NCBI GenBank assembly: GCA_026416295.1
Contig: JAOAFL010000118.1
Location: forward strand, 1 to 64,000
Origin: Burkholderiales bacterium
Lineage (GTDB): Bacteria > Pseudomonadota > Gammaproteobacteria > Burkholderiales > SG8-39
Length of the DNA: 64,000 nt
Direction: 5' to 3'
A program made the translations under genes and the position numbers. A model generated the notes under the pieces. The model had not been told where the DNA came from and searched no databases. It saw only the letters and a program-made list of their open reading frames with translations. How positions within the stretch are numbered: position 1 is the first letter of the stretch; each line of letters starts with the position of its first letter. Shown here piece after piece: positions 11,534 through 37,733 of this stretch.

Positions 11534-11609
11534 TGGGGTGGCCGATGGGACTCGAACCCACAACAACCGGAATCACAATCCGGGACTCTACCGTTGAGCT
11601 ACGGCCACC
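11534..11609 (-). tRNA. tRNA-His (GTG)
   Basis: A full cloverleaf is visible on the minus strand. The acceptor stem is GTGGCCG/CGGCCAC, with the extra G at position -1 that identifies tRNA-His. The anticodon loop is TTGTGAT with anticodon GTG, the T arm contains GGTTCGAGTCC, and CCA is encoded. A short T-rich run (TCTTTTT) follows the 3' end. It is the last of a Pro-Arg-His tRNA unit. Confidence 0.96.
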
Positions 11610-11646
11610 GTCGGTCGCGCACCCGCCCGCGGTTCCGCCGGGCGAC

Positions 11647-11723
11647 TGGCCTGCCCGGCGGGGATCGAACCCACAACCCCCAGCTTAGAAGGCTGGTGCT
11701 CTATCCGGTTGAGCTACGGGCAG
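11647..11723 (-). tRNA. tRNA-Arg (TCT)
   Basis: A minus-strand cloverleaf with acceptor stem CTGCCCG/CGGGCAG, anticodon stem-loop CCAGC-CTTCTAA-GCTGG (anticodon TCT), T arm GGTTCGATCC and encoded CCA. It lies 37 bases upstream of tRNA-His in the same transcription unit. Confidence 0.96.
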
Positions 11724-11743
11724 CTCGCGCTCGCCGTCGGGCG

Positions 11744-11820
11744 TGGTCGGGGTGGGGAGATTCGAACTCCCGACATCCTGCTCCCAAAGCAGGCGCGCTG
11801 CCAGGCTGCGCCACACCCCG
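11744..11820 (-). tRNA. tRNA-Pro (TGG)
   Basis: A minus-strand cloverleaf with acceptor stem CGGGGTG/CACCCCG, anticodon stem-loop CCTGC-TTTGGGA-GCAGG (anticodon TGG), T arm AGTTCGAATCT and encoded CCA. It is the first gene of the tRNA trio and is divergent from dksA, with 92 bases between them. Confidence 0.96.
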
Positions 11821-14932: not shown

Positions 14933-15838
14933 TCAGCCGGTTGCGATCGCGCTCGCGGGGTTCGCGACGAGGCGCTCCGGCCGTAGCAGGCCGTCGGCGC
15001 CGACGGTGCCGACGCCGAGCAGCGCGCCGTCGTGCGCAAGGACGCAGCAATCGCCGCGCGCCGCCCGCGCGGCGGGCACGGGCTGGCCGTGGCAGAAGCG
15101 CCGCGCGCGCTCGCCGTCGAGGCGGATCGCCGGCAACCCGTCGAGCAGGCGCGCAGGCGGAATCAGCCGCGCGCGGCGCGCGTGCACCGGCAGCGCCCGG
15201 AGCGCCTCCAGCCCGATCGCGTCCTCCACGCGGAAGCGGCCCGCCGCGAGGCGGCGCAGCGCGGCGAGGTGCGCGCCGCAGCCGAGCGCCTCGCCGAGGT
15301 CGGCGGCGAGCTGGCGCACGTAGGTGCCCTTGCTGCAGCGGATGCGCAGCTGAAGCAGGTCCCCTTCGTGGGAAAGGAGCGTCAGCTCGCTCACGCGCAC
15401 GCGGCGCGGCGCCCGCTCGACGTGTTCGCCGGCGCGCGCGAGCGCGTAGAGCGGTCGTCCGTCGCGCTTGAGCGCCGAATAGATCGGCGGCACCTGCGCG
15501 ATGTCGCCGCGAAACCGCTCGAGGGCCGCCTCGACGGCGGCGCGGTCGGCGTGCACCGTCCGGCGCGCGATCACCTCGCCTTCGGCGTCGCCGGTCGCGG
15601 TCGCGACGCCGAGACGGACTGCCGCGAGATAAGTCTTGTCCGCCTCGAGCGCAAAGCGCGCGAACTTGGTCGCTTCGCCGAACAGGATGACGAGCAGCCC
15701 CGAGGCGAGCGGATCGAGCGTTCCGCCGTGTCCGGCGCGGCTTGCCGCGAGCAGCCGTTTCGCCTGCTGCAGCGCCGCGTTCGAGGTGATGCCGACCGGC
15801 TTGTCGAGCAGCAGCACCCCGTCGGGGCCGCGGCTCAT
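14933..15838 (-). CDS. truB: tRNA pseudouridine-55 synthase TruB
   Basis: TruB makes the universal pseudouridine 55 in the T loop of tRNA. The 301-residue protein has [15 protein letters not shown] at the N-terminus, the catalytic aspartate in [18 protein letters not shown], and the [20 protein letters not shown] motif. A C-terminal PUA-like extension covers about residues 225-301. Its ATG at 15838 overlaps the rbfA stop by four bases (ATGA), so the two are coupled. Confidence 0.96.
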
Positions 15839-16188
15839 GTGTCGCGCGGGCGCACGCTCTCGATCAGCCGCGCGAGCCGGTCGCCGCGTTCGATGGATTC
15901 GTCGTAGACGAAGCGAAGCTGCGGCGTCTCTCGCAGCCGCATGCGGCGCGCAAGCTGCGAGCGCAGAAAGCCCGCGGCGCGCTCGAGCGCCGCTTTCGCC
16001 TCGGGCGCGCGCGCGGCGTCGAGGCAGGTGAAATACACCGTCGCGTACGCGCAGTCGGGCGACATGTCCACCGCGGTGAGCGTGACCAAGCCGACGCCCG
16101 GGTCGCGCAGCTCGCGCTGCAGGACGTCGGACAGCTCGCGCTGGATCTGGTCGCCGACCTTCTGCGCCCTGCCCGCGCGCCGTCCCAT
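15835..16188 (-). CDS. rbfA: 30S ribosome-binding factor RbfA
   Basis: RbfA is a KH-fold assembly factor needed for 16S rRNA 5' end processing and cold adaptation. The 117-residue product starts MGRRAGRAQKVGDQIQREL and contains DPGVGLVTLTAVDMSPD and the C-terminal LRFVYDESIERGDRL, all family-typical. It lies nine bases after infB and overlaps truB by four bases. Confidence 0.95.
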   Translation of the reverse strand: MGRRAGRAQKVGDQIQRELSDVLQRELRDPGVGLVTLTAVDMSPDCAYATVYFTCLDAARAPEAKAALERAAGFLRSQLARRMRLRETPQLRFVYDESIERGDRLARLIESVRPRDT

Positions 16189-16197
16189 GGACCGCTC

Positions 16198-18729
16198 CTA
16201 GAGGGTGCGCGCGACTTCGAGCACCTCGAAGACCTCGAGCTGGTCGCCCTCCTTCACGTCCTGGAAGCCTTTCAGCGACAGCCCGCACTCGAAGCCGGCT
16301 TTCACCTCGCGCACGTCTTCCTTGAAGCGCTTGAGGGTCTCCACTTCGCCGGTGTGGATGACGACGTTGTCGCGCAGCACGCGCACGAGCGCGCCGCGTC
16401 GCACCACGCCCTCCTGCACGTAGCAGCCGGCCACCGTGCCGACCTTGGAGATGCGGAACACCTTGCGCACCTCGACCAGACCGATGACGTTTTCCTTCTT
16501 CTCCGGCGCGAGCATGCCGGCGAGCGCCGCCTTCACGTCCTCGACCGCGTCGTAGATCACGTTGTAGTAGCGCACCTGTACGCCGCTCGTCTCGATCAGC
16601 TTGCGCGCCGCCGCGTCGGCGCGCGTATTGAAGCCGACGATGATCGCGCGCGAGGCGAGCGCGAGATTGACGTCGGACTCGGTGATGCCGCCGACGCCCG
16701 CGTGCACCACGTTCACGCGCACCTCGTCGGTCGAGAGCTTCGCGAGCGCGTGCACGAGCGCCTCCTGCGAACCCTGCACGTCGGCCTTGAGCACGATGGC
16801 GAGCGTCTTTTTCTCGCCCTCGCCCATCTGTTCGAGCACGTTCTCCAGCTTCGCCGCCTGCTGGCGGGCGAGCTTGACGTCGCGGAACTTGCCTTGGCGG
16901 AACAGCGCGACCTCGCGCGCCTTGCGCTCGTCGCCGATCACGATCATGTCGTCGCCGGCGCGCGGCACGTCCGACAGTCCGAGCACCTCGACCGGGATGG
17001 AGGGGCCCGCCGAGGCCACGGGGCGGCCGTTTTCGTCGAACATCGCCCGCACGCGCCCGAACGCCGCGCCCGCGAGCACGACGTCGCCGCGCTTGAGCGT
17101 GCCCGACTGCACGAGCAGCGTCGCGACCGGGCCCCGCCCCTTGTCCAGGCGCGCTTCGATCACCACACCCTTCGCCGGCGCGGCGACCGGCGCGCGCAGC
17201 TCGCGGATCTCGGCCTGCAGCAGCACCTGCTCGAGCAGCGCGTCGATGCCCATGCCGGTCTTCGCCGACACCGGCACGAACGGCGCCTCTCCGCCGAGCT
17301 CCTCCGGCACGACGCCGTGGGCGAGCAGTTCGCGCTTGACCTTTTCCGGGTTCGCGTCCGGCTTGTCCATCTTGTTGATCGCGACGACGATCGGCACGCC
17401 GGCGGCGCGCGCATGGTTGATCGCCTCCACGGTCTGCGGCATGACGCCGTCGTCGGCGGCGACCACGAGGACGACGATGTCGGTCACTTTCGCGCCGCGC
17501 GCCCGCATCGCGGTGAACGCCTCGTGGCCCGGGGTGTCGAGGAACGTGATCACGCCGCGCGGCGTCTGAACGTGGTAGGCGCCGATGTGCTGCGTGATGC
17601 CGCCCGCCTCGCCCGCCGCCACCTTCGTGCGCCGGATCGTGTCGAGGAGCGAGGTCTTGCCGTGATCCACGTGGCCCATCACGGTGACCACCGGCGGCCG
17701 AGGCAGCAGTTCCGCCTCGCCCGCCTGCGCGAGCGTTTCGGTGAGGTACGCCTCGGGATCGTCGAGTTTCGCGGCTTTCGCCTTGTGACCCATTTCCTCG
17801 ACGACGATCATCGCCGTCTCCTGGTCGAGCGACTGGTTGATCGTCGCCATGATGCCGAGCTTCATGAGCACCTTGATCACCTCGACGGCCTTCACCGCCA
17901 TGCGGTGCGCAAGCTCGCCCACCGTGATCGTTTCCGGCACCGCGATTTCGCGCACCACCGGTTCGGCCGGCGGCGTGAAGCCGGTCTCGGCGCCCGCCTG
18001 CGCGCGGCGCGCGCCGGCCGCTTTCGGCCCGTGCCAGCCGGCGACCCCGCCGCCCGCGTCGCCGCGCGTCTTGATCGCGCGCCGGCGCACGCTGTCGTCG
18101 GCGAGCACCGTGGTCTTGATCTTCTTCGCCTTCTTGTCGGCCTTCGCCTCTACCGTTTTCGGGGCGTGCAGCGTGCCCTCGCGCGCCGGCGCGGGCGCGG
18201 GCGGCGCCGGCTCCGCGGGCGCCGCCGCCTGCTGCTCGCGCTGCTCCGCCTCGCGGCGCTCGCGCTCCTGCTTGTCGCGCAGCTCCGCCGCCTGCAGGTC
18301 GGCGAGCTGCTGCTGGCGCCGTTGCTCTTCCTCGCGCAGCTCGCGTTCGCGTTCGTCGAGCGGCAGCGCCGAGGCGGGCGCGCCCGACGCCGCCGTCTCG
18401 GCCGCCGCCGCAGCGGTGCCGAGTTCGCCCGGATCGCGCTTGACGAACACCCGCTTTTTGCGCACTTCGACCTGGATCGTGCGCGACTTGCCGCTCGCGT
18501 CCGCCTTGCGAATCTCGCTCGTCTGCCGGCGCGTGAGCGTGATCCGGTTCTTCGGCTCAGCCGAGCCGTGCGCGCGCCGCAGGTAGTCGAGCAGGCGCGA
18601 TTTGTCCTGTTCGGTGAGCGGGTCTTCGGGAACGCGCTTGTCGACGCCCGCCGCGCGCAGCTGCTCGAGCAGCACCGACGGCGGAACCTTCAGTTCGCTC
18701 GCGAACTGCGCGACGCTCGTCTGCGCCAT
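16198..18729 (-). CDS. infB: Translation initiation factor IF-2
   Basis: IF-2 is the GTPase that delivers fMet-tRNA to the 30S subunit (843 aa). An N-terminal IF2-N domain ([20 protein letters not shown]) is followed by a low-complexity Ala/Glu/Arg/Gln region at about residues 130-240 and a second IF2-N-like segment. The GTPase domain has [20 protein letters not shown] and NKMDKP, and domains II-IV follow. The gene begins one base after the nusA stop (TAGgATG), so coupling within rimP-nusA-infB-rbfA-truB is tight. Confidence 0.97.
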
Positions 18730-18730
18730 C

Positions 18731-20230
18731 CTAGGCCGCCTCCTCGCTCTGGGCTTCGGCGGCGAACCAGTGCGCGCGCGCCGCCATGATGAGCCTCTTT
18801 GCGCGCTCCTCGTCGACGCCGGCGGCTTCGGCCAGTTCGTCCACCGCCAGATCGGCCAGTTCGTCGCGGGTACGGATGCCCCGACGCGCGAGCGTCGCCG
18901 CGAGCTGATTGTCCATGCCCTCCAGGCGCAGCAGCGCCGGATCGACGCCCTCCAGGCTTTCCTCGCTCGCGATCGCCTCGACCAGCAGCGCGTTGCGCGC
19001 GCGGCTGCGCAGTTCGTTCACGGTTTCCTCGTCGAGCGCCTCGATCTCCAGCATCTCCTGGATCGGGACATAGGCCACTTCTTCCAGCGAGGAAAAACCC
19101 TCCTGCACGAGGATGTCGGCGACCTCCTCGTCGACGTCGAGCTTTTCCATGAACAGCCGCCGGGCGCGCTCGCTTTCCTCCTGCTGCTTCTTCCTCGATT
19201 CCTCCTCGGTCATCAGGTTGATCGTCCAGCCGGTGAGCTCCGAGGCGAGGCGTACGTTCTGACCGCTGCGGCCGATCGCAATCGCGAGGTTCTGCTCGTC
19301 CACCACCACGTCCATCGCGTGCTTTTCCTCGTCCACCACGATCGAGGTGACCTCGGCGGGCGCGAGCGCCCCGATCACGAACTGCGCCGGGTCCGGCGAC
19401 CACAGGACGATGTCCACGCGCTCGCCCGCGAGTTCCTGCGTCACCGCCTGCACGCGCGAGCCGCGCATGCCGACGCAGGTGCCGATCGGGTCGATGCGCT
19501 TGTCGAGCGCGTGCACCGCGATCTTCGCGCGGATCCCCGGGTCGCGCGCCGCCGACTTGATCTCGAGCAGCCCCTCCTCGATCTCCGGCACTTCCAGCTC
19601 GAACAGCTTGATGATGAACTGCGGCGCGGTGCGCGACAGGATCAGCTGCGGGCCGCGCGCCGCGCGGTCCACCTTCATCACCCAGGCGCGCACGCGGTCG
19701 CCGACGCGCAGGTTCTCCTTCGGGATCATCTGATCGCGCGGCAGCAGCGCCTCCAGGCGGCCGGACTCGACGATCGCGTTGCCGCGCTCCATGCGCCGGA
19801 TCGTGCCGGTGACCAGTTCGTCGCCGCGCGCGAGGAAGTCGTTGAGAATCTGTTCGCGCTCGGCCTCTCGGATGCGCTGCAGGATGACCTGCTTCGCGGT
19901 CTGCGCGCCGATGCGGCCGAACGGTATGTTTTCGAGCGGCTCCTCGACGACGTCGCCGAGCTTGAGTGCGGGATCGCGCGCCTGCGCCTGCGAGAGCGCG
20001 ATCTGCTGCGCGGGGTTTTCCAGCGCCTCGTCGGGCACGACCTTCCAGCGCCGGAAGGACGCGTACTGGCCGGTCGCGCGGTCCACCGCCACGCGCACGT
20101 CCACGTCCTCGCTGAAACGCTTCTTGGTGGCCGAGGCGAGCGCGAGCTCCAGCGCGCCGAACACCACGTCGCGCGCGACGTTTTTTTCGCGCGCGAGCGC
20201 ATCCACCAGCATCAGTATTTCCCGGCTCAT
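18731..20230 (-). CDS. nusA: Transcription termination/antitermination factor NusA
   Basis: NusA modulates pausing, termination and antitermination. The 499-residue product has the RNAP-binding N-terminal domain ([21 protein letters not shown]), an S1 domain, two KH domains around residues 230-345 ([18 protein letters not shown]) and two C-terminal acidic repeats ending in a helix-hairpin-helix-like segment. ATG 20230 gives the canonical start; the longer frame upstream runs over the rimP stop region. There are 28 bases between rimP and nusA. Confidence 0.97.
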
Positions 20231-20258: not shown

Positions 20259-20711
20259 TCAAACCTGCGGCACCAGCCGCGCCCGGTCGATCGCGTCCAG
20301 CCGCACCGCAACCTCCTCTCCGTTCACCTCGAGCGTCGCCACCCCCTCGTGCGCGCCGCGCAGCAGGCCGGTGTAGCGCCGACGCCCGGCGGCATCGGGC
20401 GAACGCAGGCGCACGCTCACCTGCCGCCCGGCAAAGCGGGCGAAATCGCGCTCGCCGCTGAGCGGACGGTCGAGGCCGGGCGAGGACACTTCCAGCCGCT
20501 CGTACGCCACGCCTTCGACCGCGAAGAGATGGGTGAGATGCCGGCTCACCGTGGCGCAGTCCTCGACCGTCACGCCGGTTCCGGCCGCGCGGTCGATGAA
20601 CACGCGCAGCAACCCGCCACGACCTGCGAGCTGCAGGTCGACCAGCTCGAACCCCATCCCGGTCAAGGTGGGCTCGACGATCGTCCTCACGCGTTCTACG
20701 GCTCCTTTCAT
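20259..20711 (-). CDS. rimP: Ribosome maturation factor RimP
   Basis: RimP assists 30S maturation. The 150-residue product has [33 protein letters not shown] and [12 protein letters not shown], the family signature. ATG 20711 is the best start; upstream in-frame codons would read through the terminator-like hairpin in the leader. It is the first gene of the rimP-nusA-infB-rbfA-truB operon. Confidence 0.94.
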
Positions 20712-20740
20712 CGAGCGTTCTCGGCGCGCGCCGCTCAAAC

Positions 20741-20762
20741 AAAAAATGGGCCGAAGCCCATT
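20741..20762 (-). terminator. Intrinsic terminator-like hairpin in the rimP leader
   Basis: On the minus strand AATGGGC-TTCG-GCCCATT is followed by a T-tract running on from the stem (TTTTTT), a textbook intrinsic terminator with a stable TTCG loop. It lies downstream of the promoter at 20779-20807 and only 29 bases before the rimP start codon, so it would attenuate the rimP operon as well as terminate rluB transcription. Confidence 0.8.
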
Positions 20763-20778
20763 CCCCATTAGCGACGAA

Positions 20779-20807
20779 AGTATACCGAGTTTCGACCTGC
20801 GGAACAA
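20779..20807 (-). promoter_or_regulatory. Sigma-70-type promoter for rimP-nusA-infB operon
   Basis: On the minus strand TTGTTC (20802-20807), a 17-base spacer and TATACT (20779-20784) lie directly after the rluB stop codon. The predicted start of transcription, near 20772, is just upstream of the terminator-like hairpin, so every transcript from here must pass it. Confidence 0.65.
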
Positions 20808-20811
20808 CGGC

Positions 20812-21633
20812 TCAGGGCGTCGCGCGCAACGCCTGCAAGGCGCGTCGCACCTGCGCCGGATCGGCTTCACACCAGCGGCCCGGGGCGAGGCCCTCGGGCA
20901 GCGCGAACGGCCCGAAGCGCACGCGAACGAGCCGGCTCACCTGCCGGCCGAGGGCCTCGAACAGGCGGCGGACCTCGCGCTTTCGCCCTTCGGCGAGTAC
21001 CACGCGGTACCAACGGTTCGCCGAGGTCGGGGAGCCGGCGGCAAGCGGCTCGATGTGGCGCACCCGCGCGATGCCGTCCTCGAGCGCGACGCCGGCGCGC
21101 AGCCGCCGCAGCTCCGCGTCCTCGAGCGGCCCGAGCACGCGCACCCGGTACTCGCGCTCCACGCCGTAGCGCGGGTGCATCAAGCGCGCGGCGACCTCGC
21201 CCGCGTTCGTGAAAAGGAGCAGCCCGGCGCTGTTCATGTCGAGCCGGCCGACCGCGATCCAGCGCCCGCGCGCCAGCGCCGGCATACGGTCGAAAACCGT
21301 CGGACGCCCCGCCGGATCGCGCCGCGTCACCAGCTCGCCGACCGGCTTGTGGTAAAGCAGGACGCGGGGCATGACCGCCGGGCGCAGCGCGACCGGCTTG
21401 CCGTCGACCGCGATGCGGTCGGATGCCGTCGCGCGCTCGCCGAGCCGAGCGATGCGGCCGTTCACGGTGACCCGACCGGCGCGGATCCACTCCTCGATTT
21501 CGCGCCGCGAGCCGAGACCCGCGTGCGCGATGAGCTTTTGCAGCCGCGCGCCGCGCGCGCTACTCGGCGCCGACGGGGCGGGCGTCGGCCGGCGCTTCGG
21601 CGGCAGGCTGCGTCGCGGCGGCTTCGAGTTCAA
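20812..21633 (-). CDS. rluB: 23S rRNA pseudouridine synthase, RluB family
   Basis: A RsuA/RluB/RluE/RluF-type pseudouridine synthase (273 aa). An N-terminal basic, Pro-rich tail leads into an S4 RNA-binding domain ([21 protein letters not shown]). The catalytic domain has the active-site aspartate in [16 protein letters not shown], and [12 protein letters not shown] lies near the C-terminus. The length and the ScpB neighbour favour RluB (position 2605) over RsuA. The start overlaps scpB by 74 bases; the S4 domain begins about 28 codons in, so a shorter start is possible but no better codon is seen. Confidence 0.87.
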
Positions 21634-37702: not shown

Positions 37703-37733
37703 GAGCGCGGCCGCCGGGCCGCGCTCTTTTTTT
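37703..37733 (+). terminator. Strong intrinsic terminator between binding protein and permease
   Basis: GAGCGCGGCC-GCCG-GGCCGCGCTC forms a perfect 10-base-pair stem with a four-base loop, followed immediately by seven Ts. The next gene's ATG begins at 37734, directly after the last T. Partial read-through would set a high binding protein to permease ratio. Confidence 0.9.

Follow-up and report, generated by a model that had tools for sequence, protein, structure and literature searches.

Within the window studied here (the whole 64,000-nucleotide stretch of DNA that was analysed), a promoter-like sequence on the minus strand lies directly after an rluB-type gene and is followed at once by a hairpin and then by rimP. 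The gene order on this strand is scpA, scpB, rluB, then promoter and hairpin, rimP, nusA, infB, rbfA, truB (Table 1); the products of the rimP-nusA-infB operon serve ribosome assembly or are transcription factors. Which gene does the hairpin serve? Does it end the transcript coming from rluB, or does it attenuate the rimP operon, as a first-pass annotation of the sequence had proposed, and which factor could then gate it?

Table 1. Features of the rimP leader and of the neighbouring genes in the window
Feature	Coordinates	Strand	Basis
-35 element TTGTTC, 3/6 consensus match	20802..20807	-	sequence; TTGTyC at the same place in most family relatives
-10 element TATACT, 5/6 match, 17-nt spacer	20779..20784	-	sequence; TAAACT/TATACT in relatives
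Predicted transcription start region	20770..20773 (+1 ~20772)	-	inferred from -10 spacing
Terminator stem-loop AATGGGC-TTCG-GCCCATT with rimP-leader GGGc(...)gCCC core	20745..20762	-	sequence, folding, shuffles; conserved and covarying in relatives
Interrupted T-tract TTTTGTTTG	20736..20744	-	sequence; T-R-TTT pattern conserved
rimP (PF02576, PF17384)	20259..20711	-	ATG at 20711, possibly GTG seven codons in
nusA	18731..20230	-	gene calling/domains
infB (IF-2)	16198..18729	-	gene calling/domains
rbfA	15835..16188	-	gene calling/domains
truB	14933..15838	-	gene calling/domains
rluB-type pseudouridine synthase (S4 + PseudoU_synth_2), upstream gene	20812..21633	-	domains

The promoter had been described as good. 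Its two elements are indeed present after rluB with the expected spacer, but the adjective was generous: together they match the consensus at 8 positions out of 12 (3/6 and 5/6), and the promoter is of moderate strength. The predicted +1 falls about 7 nt after the -10 element and about 10 nt before the stem. An automated promoter and terminator scan of the window called neither the rimP promoter nor the hairpin. The promoter was left unlisted because its -35 element fails the 4/6 rule of the scan, and the hairpin probably because G-U pairing lets the stem absorb the T-tract.

The TTCG-loop terminator with its T-tract was found as annotated, roughly 10 nt past the predicted start and 29 nt before rimP, this last distance being counted from the end of the first T-run (20741) to the ATG. 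The stem is a perfect 7-bp helix (AATGGGC/GCCCATT) closed by a UUCG loop; it folds at -9.9 kcal/mol, and 0 of 200 shuffles were as stable. It has the anatomy of an intrinsic terminator, a GC-rich stem followed by a U-tract, and on this ground it is predicted to be one. RNA release is predicted at about 20741-20737, which would give a leader RNA some 32-36 nt long. Only two terminators with a perfect stem of the same quality were detected in the 64-kb window, the rimP leader and a site at 37703 on the plus strand, while 30 dinucleotide-shuffled windows yielded one in total. At the latter site (37703-37726), seven T follow a very strong, GC-rich stem-loop of 10 bp; the window has no clean intrinsic terminator besides these two. 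Across the 2.87-Mb genome only five sites combine GGGC-loop-GCCC with a T-run, and the GCCCATTTTT ending occurs at the rimP leader only. Since 0.00 chance occurrences of the exact motif are expected and the motif is conserved before rimP, the hairpin is not a product of chance.

Conservation was followed from the family to the whole of GTDB. Close relatives have not lost the hairpin, a loss that had been named as evidence against the attenuator: it stands at 30 of 30 rimP loci of the family, same-genus genomes included, with a GCCCT variant at L026. In the order, the exact motif precedes 94 of 116 rimP genes at a median of 38.5 nt from the RimP_N domain, and 19 of the other 22 carry variants with a longer loop, a GCCCG or GCCCT arm, or an altered but still pairing core (GAGCC..GGCTC in L222 and L243, GGCC..GGCC in L209). 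From the remaining 3 of the 116 (L248, L251 and L253) the hairpin is apparently absent. The class sample comprised 60 rimP loci, mostly one genome per family. A majority of them show the hairpin, often as GTGGGC..GCCCAC, and in others the sole hairpin is a CCCC..GGGG one that follows tRNA-Met. A motif search in the class returned 15 matches, all 13 with a listed rimP position being directly 5' of rimP; the reversed control returned 0 matches in the same class. Finally, GTDB genomes were scanned with the pattern GGGC-N3-9-GCCCATTTTTTRTTTG. Among the 80 matches listed, 78 precede rimP, or 78 of the 79 that can be tested, the stretch of L038 ending too early to judge. The exception, L031 (Massilia sp. 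IC2-477), carries the exact motif with no rimP downstream in the examined stretch and is the sole such case among the matches listed. At L033 (JAEUQQ010000305.1, labelled Acidobacteria) the motif lies directly 5' of a rimP homologue, so that either the motif is more widely spread or the contig has been misbinned.

Base pairing is maintained along with the motif. Among 91 sequences selected by RimP, all 91 have A-U, G-U or G-C as the second pair outside the core, and 71, versus 52 expected by chance, have a standard first pair inside it. The form of the T-tract is also conserved, as four or five T, a purine and three T, with T-runs in essentially all of the 91. The rimP hairpin is conserved across beta- and gammaproteobacteria.

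The promoter-then-hairpin order, the very feature to be checked in relatives according to the first-pass annotation, is conserved in the family, the order and the class. Most family members keep TTGTyC-N17-TAAACT or TTGTyC-N17-TATACT, at 15-68 nt between the -10 box and the stem, and 9 -10 boxes were counted 5' of the hairpin, versus 1.3 in shuffles. In the order, 23 of 26 loci have a -10 box 6-51 nt from the hairpin (9.9 in shuffles), and in the class 12 of 36 loci have one 5' of it (5.9 in shuffles).

Can the hairpin nevertheless be a plain intrinsic terminator of the scpA-scpB-rluB transcript, the promoter-like sequence being incidental? In the family, rluB is directly upstream on the same strand at 26 of 29 loci, and no other terminator was seen between rluB and the hairpin. 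Outside the family the association dissolves: among 36 motif-bearing loci of the class, tRNA-Met is upstream of the same hairpin in 20 and rluB in none, and several gammaproteobacterial loci have a separate CCCC..GGGG terminator first and the rimP hairpin after it. Moreover, nine relatives (L218, L225, L224, L228, L221, L235, L238, L162 and L174) have a divergent upstream gene, and the gap before rimP still contains the -10 box and the hairpin. Their divergent neighbours encode, by Pfam domain, TM_HPP (L218), a class-V aminotransferase, glutaminyl/glutamyl-tRNA synthetase, MFS, a class-I/II aminotransferase, DUF1841, secretin and HD; the neighbour in L225 was assigned as a sequence homologue of the L218 TM_HPP protein, the Pfam scan having been run on L218 only. 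A hairpin kept where nothing upstream needs terminating is a leader element of rimP, which agrees with the initial view that it is not a pure rluB terminator, and this provides clean comparative evidence that it goes with rimP rather than with its upstream neighbour. The comparisons thus largely refute rluB termination as the sole role of the hairpin, and we rate the plain-terminator reading as highly improbable. The two roles are compatible: rluB transcripts pass the same hairpin in the source genome, and the hairpin may additionally end such read-through. As a separate observation, tRNA-Met adjoins rimP upstream in most of the gammaproteobacterial families sampled (L193, L203, L206-L208 and others), like metY in E. 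coli.

A different reading would assign the hairpin and the U-rich tract a main role in mRNA stability or translation: the stem would shield the 5' end of the message, or the U-rich tract would let ribosomes land on a gene usually lacking a Shine-Dalgarno sequence. The first in-frame rimP start of 90 relatives is a median of 24 nt past the stem core, and an SD-like 4-mer was found in only 24 of them; starts being so close and SD sequences so few, the hairpin and T-tract are often within the ribosome-binding region. Neither role, however, needs the perfect terminator anatomy or the T-runs present in essentially all sequences, and the hairpin-to-RimP_N distance varies widely, from about 30 to more than 200 nt. 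We consider this reading quite improbable. In the source genome, no clear Shine-Dalgarno was seen 5' of the rimP ATG (20676-20711, minus strand). An AAAGGAG lies just inside the ORF and an in-frame GTG 11 nt after it, which makes this GTG a possible rimP start; the starts of relatives fall between the ATG and the GTG.

Attenuator-type rimP leaders in other proteobacteria, mentioned in the first-pass annotation, are on record: the rimP-leader was described by Naville & Gautheret 2010 (PMC2965389) and ranked first among attenuation-regulated genes. That element lies in the 5' region of the rimP-nusA-infB operon, 4-130 nt from the gene, with a GGGc(...)gCCC terminator stem, a T-stretch and no visible antiterminator. 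The source genome shows each of these features, the distance being 29 nt from the end of the first T-run to the ATG and the lack of an antiterminator following from the predicted start and the folding. With no essential difference between the two, the element is the published rimP-leader in a short form. Rfam family RF01770, the gammaproteobacterial rimP leader, shares the gene context; unlike the present element, its 102-position model matches E. coli and not the source genome. A known longer Rfam element in the leader was considered and dropped, no match rising above noise: RF01770 gave none in the window at the gathering score or up to E<=10, none in the source genome and none above the cut-off among 60 order genomes, where two sub-threshold matches both lie away from rimP. 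The element is therefore outside the family by Rfam criteria and inside it by the published motif, and the Rfam model overlooks the short form throughout an order. The attenuator itself has been known since 2010, and the present case is well placed but ordinary; what is new is that promoter and hairpin keep their order in relatives, that the hairpin persists beside divergent neighbours, that it has been counted across the order and that the promoter lies very close to the stem, along with the Rfam gap.

We infer promoter use, partial termination and regulation by NusA from these elements. Quite probably, the short-form rimP-leader is a promoter-proximal attenuator of rimP-nusA-infB-rbfA-truB, most likely gated by NusA. 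RNA polymerase would start about 10 nt 5' of the hairpin and, at about +32 to +36, either release a tiny leader RNA or read through into rimP. Release would be incomplete and would depend on elongation factors because the stem is short and closed at its base by A-U pairs, and the U-tract is interrupted; a weak A-U/G-U stem base and an interrupted U-tract have been reported for Nus-dependent terminators (PMC8060035). The 10 nt or so in front of the stem would offer no room for a competing upstream structure, and proteins that act on the polymerase at the hairpin would then be left to exert control. Given the predicted start site, control by a leader peptide or in the manner of a riboswitch is very unlikely. 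An RNA-only antiterminator was rejected, there being no upstream room and folding giving the terminator only. A second AATGGG copy in the leader, which could do no more than pair with that 3' arm in another hairpin, was also discarded, as the copy is not conserved. RNA-only switching being nearly excluded in so short a leader, factor-dependent termination should be easy to examine in vitro.

By analogy with known systems, a protein-gated decision with NusA feedback is the most likely mechanism. NusA is the leading candidate because it is encoded in the operon, represses the operon of E. coli and autoregulates in B. subtilis. The E. coli metY-rimP-nusA-infB operon is given as repressed by NusA (PMC6511841; as cited in PMC2965389). 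Its leader, with t1/t2, likewise has terminators between promoters and rimP, whereas it has tRNA-fMet and several promoters upstream where the source genome has rluB and one predicted promoter. In B. subtilis, according to a review (PMC12288461), NusA autoregulates by stimulating intrinsic termination within the leader of its own operon. This precedent makes NusA feedback plausible here, in a leader of about 60 nt in total, 10 of them or so before the stem, versus about 180 nt in B. subtilis (PMC2965389). NusA, the product of the second gene, would most likely promote release, so that high NusA would lower expression of its own operon.

Gating of the attenuator by another factor (NusG, RimP or the general elongation rate) appears rather unlikely. 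Within the T-tract is a TTRTTT, a sequence of the NusG pause-motif form, and among four same-genus genomes in which NusG was typed, three have the N-T dipeptide of the pro-pausing type at the position of S85-V86 in E. coli, the fourth having S-T; NusG was not found in the source assembly. However, T-R-TTT is just as well conserved across the class sample, gammaproteobacteria included, to which group the E. coli-type NusG is mostly restricted. The dipeptide is thus not specific evidence, and the NusG type as cause of TTRTTT conservation is weakened. As for RimP, its binding is put forward only as a hypothesis in PMC2965389. Help from NusG at the rimP leader is possible. In an unlikely combination of the two, a minimal protein-only attenuator, NusA and a pro-pausing N-T NusG would together determine, no more than about 36 nt from the start, whether the RNA is released, reading the conserved weak stem base and TTRTTT; if so, the operon would directly sense the supply of elongation factors. 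Elsewhere in the window, three tRNA genes lie in a row at 11537-11820 on the minus strand.
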